Assembly (NCBI GenBank): GCA_020052615.1
Contig: JAGVOT010000123.1
Coordinates: forward strand, 32,174-88,046
DNA length: 55,873 bases
Source: Nitrospirota bacterium
GTDB taxonomy: Bacteria > Nitrospirota > UBA9217
Reading direction: 5' to 3'
The notes under the pieces are model-generated. The model was not told the DNA's origin. It saw nothing but the letters and a program-made list of their open reading frames with translations, and made no database searches. The position numbers were made by a program, and so were the translations under genes. Below are positions 6,432 to 49,943 of the stretch, piece after piece (positions within the stretch are counted from its first letter, which is position 1; each line of letters begins with the position of its first letter).

Positions 6432-7845
6432 CGCCAGGGTCGAGGCGAGGCAGTCGTTCTATGTGAAGCAGCAGCTGATCGCAGCTGCGAAAACGACCTT
6501 CCAGCAGCTTGCCGGGGTCATCAAGAATGCGACCGTCTATCCCGCCGCGCACCCCTTTCTGCTGGCGTCGGCGGACCAGCTCCTTGACCGCCTCAAGGAG
6601 TTCCTTCTGTCGCGCAAGGAGGTGGCGTTCTATCTGGTCGGTGGCGAACTGTTCTTTGAGACCCACTCGGTGCCGATCGACCAGAGCCTCTCGATGCTGA
6701 TGGAACAGTTCACGGCTCGGGATGTGGGCGGCGTCATCTTCAAGCCGGGGATCACCTGCGACGAGATCGTGAGGTTCGCTTACCTGATGAACAAGGATGC
6801 CGCCTATTTCGCCGAACAGGGCGGTGTAGTCAAGGTCATCGCGAAGGAGAAGATGGTTCATATCGATCTCCACCGGGTGATCCTCGTCGACAAGAAGTTC
6901 GGCGCGGCCATCAAGGAGGCGAAGAAAAAGTCCAGCGAGATCTTCATGGATGCGGTTGATACGGTCAAGGAGATCGTCAACTCCATCCATCTGGACAAGG
7001 CGGTCAACATGAAGAAGGTCAGCGCGGTCGTCCACGGCATGGTGGATGATATCCTCGACAACCGCGACGCCCTTATGGGATTGACGACCATCAAGATGTA
7101 TGATGAGTACACCTTCGCCCACTCGGTGAACGTCGCCGTTCTGTCCATTTCGCAGGGGACCTTCCTGTCGTTCGAGAAACCCCAGATCGCTGCGCTCGGG
7201 ATCGCGGGCATGATGCATGACATCGGCAAGGTGAATATTCCGCTGGAGGTCATCAACAAACCGGACAAGCTAACGGACGAGGAATGGGAACAGGTCAAAC
7301 GCCACCCGATCGAAGGCGCGCTGATCCTCTCCGACGTGCCTGCCATGACACGGCTTGCCATGGTGGCCGCTTTTGAACACCACCAGCACGGTGATATTCG
7401 CGGATATCCCCGTATGGATGACCGGGTCCAACAGCACCCCTTCTCGCAGATCATCGCTATCGCCGATGCGTACGACGCCATCATCGCTGCGCGCGTTTAC
7501 TACAAAGTGTCGACCCCCCCGGATAAGGCGATCAGGATCATGCTGAGCAAGCGCGGCACGGTATTCAACCCGGTCCTGCTCAAGGCGTTCGTCAATATGA
7601 TCGGCATCTATCCGGTGGGGACGCTGCTCAAGCTCGATTCAGGAGAGGTCGGGATCGTAGTGCACCAGACGCGGGACCTCATGCGCCCCCGGGTGCTTCT
7701 TCTCACGAAGTTCGACGGCTCCGAGAAGGAGTCGGGAACGGAAGTGAGCCTTCTTGAGATGGAAGGCGGGCGCTATAAACGCACGATCGCAGGGAGCATC
7801 GATCCGAGCACCGCGAAGGTCGACGTAAAGAAGTATCTGGAATGA
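6412..7845 (+). CDS. HD-GYP-type phosphohydrolase with N-terminal sensory-like domain
   Basis: The N-terminal part (about residues 10-160) resembles that of the HEAT gene upstream, with ATVYPAAHPFLL, a strand GGELFFETHSVPID and a GGVIFKPG segment. The C-terminal half is an HD-GYP fold: HSVNVAVLS, the metal-binding GMMHDIGKVNIP, RHPIEGA, FEHHQH, RGYPR and IADAYDAI. The GYP segment is altered relative to the usual HHExxDGxGYP (Q instead of E, spacing kept), so c-di-GMP hydrolysis is likely but not certain. The ATG at 6412 has GGAGG nine bases upstream and was preferred to a TTG at 6406. It is co-transcribed with the HEAT gene. Confidence 0.85.
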   Translation: MSAENTDARVEARQSFYVKQQLIAAAKTTFQQLAGVIKNATVYPAAHPFLLASADQLLDRLKEFLLSRKEVAFYLVGGELFFETHSVPIDQSLSMLMEQFTARDVGGVIFKPGITCDEIVRFAYLMNKDAAYFAEQGGVVKVIAKEKMVHIDLHRVILVDKKFGAAIKEAKKKSSEIFMDAVDTVKEIVNSIHLDKAVNMKKVSAVVHGMVDDILDNRDALMGLTTIKMYDEYTFAHSVNVAVLSISQGTFLSFEKPQIAALGIAGMMHDIGKVNIPLEVINKPDKLTDEEWEQVKRHPIEGALILSDVPAMTRLAMVAAFEHHQHGDIRGYPRMDDRVQQHPFSQIIAIADAYDAIIAARVYYKVSTPPDKAIRIMLSKRGTVFNPVLLKAFVNMIGIYPVGTLLKLDSGEVGIVVHQTRDLMRPRVLLLTKFDGSEKESGTEVSLLEMEGGRYKRTIAGSIDPSTAKVDVKKYLE

Positions 7846-20204: not shown

Positions 20205-20226
20205 ACCGGCATAATTACATACTGAA

Positions 20227-20395
20227 CACATCCAGGCGAAGGGAATCCCGTGTAAATCGGGAGCGGACCCGCCGCTGTGATCCCGGCCCTGCTGGAAGCA
20301 GGGTCAACGCCTCTGTCAGATCGTATCCACTGTCCCGAACCATCGGGATGGGAAGGACGGCAGATGAGGGAGAGCCAGAAAACCTGCCCGGATGT
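20227..20395 (+). ncRNA. cobalamin riboswitch upstream of btuFCD
   Basis: P1 is formed by ACATCC (20227-20232) and GGATGT (20390-20395). Between them lie the family landmarks: the GGGAATCCCGTG core, a GCGGACCCGCCGCTGTGA-type segment, a CCACTGTCCC...GGGATGGGAAGG arm, and the B12 box AGCCAGAAAACCTGCC. It binds cobalamin and lowers expression of the B12 uptake genes. A terminator hairpin lies about 50 bases downstream, fitting transcriptional control. Confidence 0.93.
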
Positions 20396-20446
20396 TTCTC
20401 GCACAGTCTTCGGCGTTAAGACCATGTGTGGGTTAATGTGTCCCTT

Positions 20447-23916: not shown

Positions 23917-23991
23917 TGCCGGTGGAAAGGAGGTGTCGGGCGGCGAATGTTGAGCCGAAACAGGTCCACGTTTAACAGGAACATATATCCA

Positions 23992-24181
23992 GGGAATGTC
24001 GAAGCGGAAAGGGGTGGGAACCCCCTGCTGCCACGCAACTGTGATGGAAACGAAAGCCGCAGAAGACCGTGAGACGTCGGACGTAAAACGTGAGACGGCG
24101 AATGGTCTTAATGCCACTGTCCCTGACGGGATGGGAAGGCCGGCGAGTAGGATGTCCTAAGCCAGGAGACCTCACATTCCC
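23992..24181 (+). ncRNA. cobalamin riboswitch upstream of btuB
   Basis: P1 is GGGAATGT (23992-23999) with ACATTCCC (24174-24181). Inside are GGGGTGGGAACCCCC, CTGCCACGCAACTGTGATGG, GCCACTGTCCCTGACGGG, GATGGGAAGG and the B12 box AAGCCAGGAGACCT. No terminator follows; the btuB Shine-Dalgarno sequence lies about 12 bases after P1, suggesting control of translation. A variable stem (24065-24106) carries a heptanucleotide array. Confidence 0.95.
24067..24101 (+). repeat. heptanucleotide array in a peripheral stem of the riboswitch
   Basis: Five degenerate 7-base units of the type ACGTGAG occupy the loop of a stem closed by AGACC/GGTCT, between the two conserved halves of the aptamer. The aptamer core is left intact. 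Confidence 0.75.
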
Positions 24182-24205
24182 AAAACCTCGAAGGAAGGAG
24201 ATTCC

Positions 24206-30221: not shown

Positions 30222-30312
30222 AACCCACCCGTCGAGGGGCGCTGCAGCAGTCACCGCAAGGTGGGTCTGTCAGGCTCGATGGGGTGGTACAACATGCAGC
30301 AACGGCGCCCAT
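30222..30312 (+). ncRNA. S-adenosylhomocysteine (SAH) riboswitch
   Basis: The conserved SAH-riboswitch blocks are all present in order: CGAGGGGCGCTGCAGC, then GTCAGGCTCG, then CAACGGCGCCC. The class is best known from beta- and gammaproteobacteria and raises ahcY expression when SAH accumulates. A small hairpin (CATTCA/TGAATG, about 30310-30330) lies between the aptamer and the ahcY start and may occlude the ribosome site in the off state; that last point is inference. Confidence 0.94.
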
Positions 30313-30339
30313 TCATTTAACTCGTGAATGGAGAGCGTT

Positions 30340-49235: not shown

Positions 49236-49264
49236 TTGACAGGGGAAGTGCGAGGTGTTATTAA
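49236..49264 (+). promoter_or_regulatory. sigma-70 promoter for the riboswitch-CBS unit
   Basis: TTGACA (49236-49241), a 17-base spacer and TATTAA (49259-49264); the start of transcription would fall at about 49271, at the 5' edge of the riboswitch. Confidence 0.55.
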
Positions 49265-49269
49265 TTCAC

Positions 49270-49379
49270 TAACACTGACAGCAAATAGAATCCATTCCCG
49301 ATAAAGCCGACCCTTAGCTCTGAATGTTAAGGATGCGGAAAGCAACGGGTCTTGAAAAAAGACAGCCGGGCTGCCGAAG
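49270..49379 (+). ncRNA. candidate c-di-GMP-I (GEMM) type riboswitch
   Basis: The 3' half matches the GEMM-I pattern: GCGGAAAGCAACGGGTCT, a small A-rich hairpin loop, then ACAGCCGGGCTGCCGAAGG, the equivalent of the AGCnGGGnUnCCGAnGG end of the class. The 5' half has GACAGCAAAT and a helix made of ATCC/GGAT and CATTC/GAATG but is diverged and has no obvious GNRA loop. A terminator overlapping the aptamer's 3' strand supports a switch. Ligand (c-di-GMP, or cGAMP as in some Geobacter members) is not determined. Confidence 0.55.
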
Positions 49380-49410
49380 GAATCGCCTTCGGTATGCCCG
49401 GCTTTTTTTT
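49365..49410 (+). terminator. terminator overlapping the riboswitch 3' strand
   Basis: A long stem, GCCGGGC/GCCCGGC continuing to CCGAAGG/CCTTCGG, loop AATCG, followed by eight T residues (49403-49410). Its left arm is the last strand of the aptamer, so aptamer folding and terminator formation exclude each other, predicting an ON switch. Confidence 0.92.
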
Positions 49411-49469
49411 GGATCGCATGCAGCGGAATGCAGATGTGACTATGTTGAAAATGAAAGGAGGAATGCATT

Positions 49470-49943
49470 ATGTATAGCACAAGCACGGTAACGGTAAGCG
49501 ACATTCTTCGCAACAAGGGACACGGCTACCTGGGCATGCCGCCGGGGGCATCGGCCTATGCGGCACTGGAAGCCATGGCTGACCACGACGTCGGCGCGCT
49601 TCTGGTGCTCGATGAAGGGAAACTGGTGGGCGTATTCTCGGAGCGTGATTATGCGCGGAAGGTCATCTTGAAGGGGAGATCATCTCGGTCTACCACCGTG
49701 GGAGAACTGATGAGCGCCCCTCCGATCTGCGCATCGCCGGAGCTTACCTTGAAGGACTGCATGGTACTGATGAACAGCAACCATATCCGGCATCTCCCGG
49801 TCATGGAACAGGGAACGATAGTCGGGGTCGTGAGCGTCGGGGATGTGGTAGGATCGATCATCAGGAGCCAGGAAGCCACCATACATCAACTGGAGAACTA
49901 CATTGCCGGCGACGATTATCCGTCACATGTCGCTGCGCGCTGA
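49470..49943 (+). CDS. CBS-domain pair protein
   Basis: 157 residues made almost entirely of two CBS domains (about 15-75 and 80-140): ALEAMADHDVGALLVLDEGKLVGVFSERDYARK and TLKDCMVLMNSNHIRHLPVMEQGTIVGVVSVGDVV. CBS pairs bind adenine nucleotides, sometimes SAM or c-di-AMP. AAAGGAGG lies before the ATG. It is preceded by a candidate c-di-GMP-type riboswitch and terminator, so its expression probably follows a second messenger. Partner unknown. Confidence 0.9.
   Translation: MYSTSTVTVSDILRNKGHGYLGMPPGASAYAALEAMADHDVGALLVLDEGKLVGVFSERDYARKVILKGRSSRSTTVGELMSAPPICASPELTLKDCMVLMNSNHIRHLPVMEQGTIVGVVSVGDVVGSIIRSQEATIHQLENYIAGDDYPSHVAAR

Follow-up and report, generated by a model that had tools for sequence, protein, structure and literature searches.

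A GEMM-I aptamer sharing a strand with a terminator before a CBS-pair gene in Nitrospirota: a probable c-di-GMP-responsive ON switch

What does the leader of a small CBS-pair gene in an uncultured Nitrospirota bacterium sense, and how would that signal reach the gene? The question arises from a window of 55,873 nucleotides (the whole stretch of DNA analysed here) in a Nitrospirota assembly of 4 Mb and 135 contigs, for which an original prediction had placed a promoter, a GEMM-like aptamer and a very strong terminator in order before the gene. The leader is assigned here, with good confidence, to the class-I c-di-GMP (GEMM-I) riboswitches and is expected to act as a transcriptional ON switch for the CBS-pair gene. 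A search of a literature collection found no paper on a c-di-GMP riboswitch in Nitrospirota, and a search on GEMM together with CBS domains returned a general review only.

The leader and the gene behind it

Promoter, aptamer and terminator were all located in the predicted order at 49236–49410 and are followed by a Shine-Dalgarno sequence and the gene, the locus as a whole occupying 49236–49943 of the plus strand:

49236–49264, plus strand: extended −10 promoter, with −35 TTGACA (49236–49241), 14 nt, TGT (49256–49258) and −10 TATTAA (49259–49264)
49297–49379, plus strand: GEMM-I (c-di-GMP-I type) aptamer, matched by RF03167 and RF01051, with covariation in relatives
49306, 49307–49308, 49337–49338, 49339 and 49374, plus strand: key aptamer positions G20, C21/C22, G45/G46, A47 and C92, by model alignment
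49336 and 49365, plus strand: interhelical C44 and G83, both kept by alignment
49307–49308 with 49337–49338, plus strand: P1b, with an inverted C21–G46 pair, enclosing P2
49312–49318 with 49326–49332, plus strand: P2, a 7-bp stem with a 7-nt loop and no GNRA
49341–49372, plus strand: P3, whose 3′ strand (49366–49372) is also part of the terminator
49364–49410, plus strand: intrinsic terminator, 49364–49380 pairing with 49386–49403, then a U run to 49410
49456–49461, plus strand: Shine-Dalgarno AGGAGG, by sequence
49470–49943, plus strand: CBS-pair gene (PF00571), 157 aa, the predicted controlled gene

The terminator consists of a 17-bp stem followed by U8 (−32.6 kcal/mol). Its left arm, as had been proposed, is the aptamer's last strand and takes in C92 and the 3′ strands of both P3 and P1; the pairing of this strand with the downstream sequence lies 6.8 standard deviations beyond shuffled downstream sequence, and the fold of the whole leader has z = −4.5. 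The output is indeed a CBS-pair protein (PF00571, E 2.7e-23, in two stretches), likely an adenine-nucleotide sensor, whose nearest solved structure is 4fry (E 1.3e-32) and whose closest named relative comes from a Nitrospiria bin from Hainich (78% identity). A plasmid collection held no DNA resembling the locus.

Class assignment and conservation in relatives

A default Rfam scan of the window gives no match at the aptamer; above thresholds it returns two cobalamin riboswitches and one SAH riboswitch (20217–20405, 23970–24187 and 30228–30317), as well as four tRNAs. The scan is silent because the aptamer is diverged and falls below both gathering scores, 35 bits for RF01051 and 59 bits for RF03167 (c-di-GMP-I-GGC), not because it is absent. 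When the region was searched alone with relaxed filters, RF03167 matched with 40.9 bits (E 2.2e-8), and against the whole genome the aptamer reaches E 5.2e-8 with RF03167 and 34.7 bits (E 7.0e-5) with RF01051, narrowly missing the curated score of the latter. Covariance scoring, the check suggested at the outset, finds the GEMM match and leaves it below both curated thresholds. A family covariance model gives the aptamer 68.4 bits, the window element being one of the 30 members of that model.

The best-scoring Rfam model is RF03167, to which the window is close at its 5′ CCGAnAAAG and 3′ AGCCGGGCUGCCGAAG. Membership in this class was ruled out by an A at position 47 and a score of 40.9 against 59: the RF03167 consensus has G47 and G21–C46, whereas the window has A47 and C21–G46 (GGC being read as nucleotides 20, 47 and 92 from the model consensus). 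With Vc2 of Vibrio cholerae and RF01051 the element shares the P1, P1b–P2 and P3 layout, G20, A47 and C92, and C44 and G83, but its P1b is inverted, its P2 lacks a GNRA loop, and A23 and A25 are changed. Despite the near miss of the RF01051 cut-off, it is filed as GEMM-I on its other features as aligned.

Helices P1, P1b–P2 and P3 have covariation support in two alignments. With 30 elements aligned by MAFFT, 92.1% of cells pair and 56 carry changes on both sides (shuffles: 14.4 ± 4.5); sliding the helix partners removes the signal. Among 96 model-aligned elements, 91.5% of cells pair, 282 are changed on both sides against 77.5 ± 8.3, none of 500 shuffles is as high on any measure, and the signal is again lost on sliding, the control that weighs most because this alignment was fitted to the structure and kin sequences can exceed shuffles. 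The clearest covarying pair is 21–46 of P1b (C–G in 52, G–C in 40, other in 3). The window reads C21–G46 and C22–G45 against the GC/GC of the RF03167 consensus. Being compensated and widespread among these relatives, the inversion marks the lineage and does not signal decay.

The source genome holds eight GEMM-I elements, and the 13 other family genomes yield 68 RF03167 matches (E ≤ 0.001); of 198 genomes sampled from the phylum, 79 match a model built from the family. In 12 of the 14 family genomes, the source genome counted in, the CBS protein or an orthologue is present, and the aptamer precedes the orthologous gene in 9 of the 11 testable ones, L021 being left out for a contig edge upstream. 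It lies directly upstream in the window and in L018, L019, L020, L022, L023, L024 and L026, and in L028 its 5′ half is followed by a run of N. Of four orthologues at which loss had been considered, L021 and L028 are explained by the contig edge and the N run; only L025 and L027 truly lack the aptamer, and L027 retains promoter and terminator. Eight relatives have a promoter of the form TTGAC(A/C)-N14-TG(T/C)-TATnnn ahead of the orthologous gene. Covariance scores, covarying helices and this conservation support the GEMM-class aptamer that had been predicted.

Related arrangements occur elsewhere. In L152 a GEMM-I element stands before another protein, which by eye looks like a CBS pair, and in L035 one lies about 540 nt upstream of the CBS gene, from which a short reading frame separates it. 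GEMM elements also precede alpha/beta-hydrolase-like genes in three genomes, the source genome among them (L007, L142 and L144). A more distant CBS orthologue (L034, upstream of 3001) has a long leader with a −35 and a strong terminator; this leader gives no GEMM or other Rfam match and is possibly another regulatory RNA. The CBS leaders of one genus (L022, L023 and L024) have CC opposite GC in P1b plus an extra A, so that P1b is either interrupted or displaced by one position, and position 20 could read as A.

Ligand, scaffold and competing readings

The ligand contacts of Vc2 are G20, A47 and C92 (PMC4744006, PMC3764141), and cGAMP-type variants are marked by one changed pocket nucleotide (PMC9481103). 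As the window carries G20, A47 and C92, c-di-GMP is the expected ligand and, judged from these positions, very probably the molecule sensed. The mark of cGAMP-type variants (GEMM-Ib) is an A at position 20, where the window element has G. Of the 96 elements, 65 have G at this position, 30 have A and one has T, while A47 is present in 95 and C92 in 94. Three elements of the source genome have A20 (L004 and a tandem pair in L005), and two of its GGDEF proteins carry serine at the Hypr position (L186 in C90 and L191 in C30); the organism may therefore have both signals, and the base at position 20 carries information. Turnover of c-di-GMP in the organism is plausible because its genome gives about 30 GGDEF and 14 HD_5 matches. 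The HD-GYP protein reported for the window is present as an HD-GYP-type domain at about 7090–7572 (PF13487, 80 bits).

GGDEF proteins with the Hypr serine in a GH(L/M)EGSR motif were also seen in relatives (L227, L236, L237, L239–L241, L244–L247 and L252). Such proteins occur in most family genomes, many of which have A20 (cGAMP-type) GEMM elements as well, and cGAMP signalling in Nitrospirota is possible. One conserved GEMM subgroup (L005, L151, L157, L159, L161, L162 and L163), tandem in places, has U19-A20, a P1b of C21–G46 and U22–G45, and C23, and stands mostly before lipoprotein-like genes.

The 5′ half of the aptamer is diverged, as had been noticed, through its inverted P1b and missing GNRA loop; by alignment, this divergence sits in the scaffold and not in the ligand pocket. 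The GNRA motif is found in 90 of the 96 relatives, and L018, the only same-genus orthologue, has likewise lost it and has A23 and A25 changed. A GNRA tetraloop in P2 is part of the description of the type-I subgroup (PMC11218506). In Vc2 the P2 loop docks into P3 (PMC3764141), and the related Cd1 aptamer shows no binding when it carries the A24-26U mutation, at nucleotides taken to be its P2 tetraloop (PMC9262584). Given the docking in Vc2 and the Cd1 mutant, the missing loop could weaken ligand binding.

These changes, shared by the window and L018, could mean that the aptamer is weakened or decaying and that the leader now attenuates mainly in a constitutive way and responds little to ligand, which would also suit the two family genomes that have lost the aptamer before the CBS gene. 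We consider this rather improbable: the pocket nucleotides are intact, as are C44, G83 and all helices, P2 remains a 7-bp stem with compensated changes, and the altered loop is common to both same-genus copies. The diverged 5′ half had also suggested the same type of ON switch tuned to another dinucleotide, for example 3′,3′-cGAMP, and the A20 elements and Hypr-serine proteins of this genome would agree with it. However, the unusual parts belong to the scaffold, the three contact nucleotides are all of c-di-GMP type, and it is other elements of the same genome that carry A20; this suggestion was dropped as very improbable. An ordinary terminator behind an unrelated leader would account for the lack of a match at curated Rfam thresholds, but such chance resemblance is refuted by the comparative data (E 2.2e-8, covariation and a conserved position before an orthologous gene) and retains hardly any probability. 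It is also conceivable, though unlikely, that the element represents a distinct Nitrospirota sub-class of GEMM-I, with an inverted P1b, a different P2 loop in this genus, changed affinity or specificity, and recurrent dinucleotide-driven ON switching of CBS-pair nucleotide sensors.

Predicted switching and its meaning

For the preferred reading, a c-di-GMP-responsive ON switch, the closest precedent is the pilM riboswitch of Geobacter metallireducens, in which aptamer and terminator are mutually exclusive and control is transcriptional ON (PMC9262584). The window has the same arrangement, its terminator left arm being the aptamer 3′ strand with C92 included, and would share the ON logic, a direction predicted here from sequence. 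The pilM riboswitch (GEMM-Ib) responds to cGAMP, whereas the window has the c-di-GMP-type G20 and a CBS-pair gene as its predicted target. Because the aptamer and the terminator cannot form together, a bound ligand should keep transcription from terminating; with the covariance scores and the conservation in relatives, this agrees with the ON direction originally proposed. The leader transcript would begin at the conserved extended −10 promoter, and c-di-GMP would bind at the junction through contacts with G20, A47 and C92. With ligand, strand 49366–49376 would stay in the aptamer, the terminator would be blocked and the CBS-pair gene transcribed; without it, the strand would pair with 49386–49403 and transcription would stop at the U run.

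In an equilibrium model, P3 pairs are near zero in the full transcript, and upper P3 stands at 0.96–0.98 in a nascent RNA ending at 49383. By secondary-structure energies, an alternative apo fold is favoured by 1.8 kcal/mol over the fold with P1b and P3 enforced (family median 3.7). Among the G20 elements of the family, an overlapping terminator accompanies 29 of the 35 that carry C21–G46 and 0 of the 12 that carry G21–C46, a contrast that may be due to shared descent.

Taken together, the element is real and conserved, and very probably an ON riboswitch of the c-di-GMP-I type standing before a CBS-pair gene. It is essentially an ordinary member of a mechanism class already known; what it adds are scaffold changes specific to the lineage and a CBS target that recurs. 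The compensated P1b inversion together with the diverged P2 makes genuine GEMM-I elements score under the usual Rfam cut-offs, and regulons in such lineages are therefore under-counted. For Nitrospirota, we infer that c-di-GMP is linked to the production of a CBS-pair protein, whose level would rise with this second messenger.
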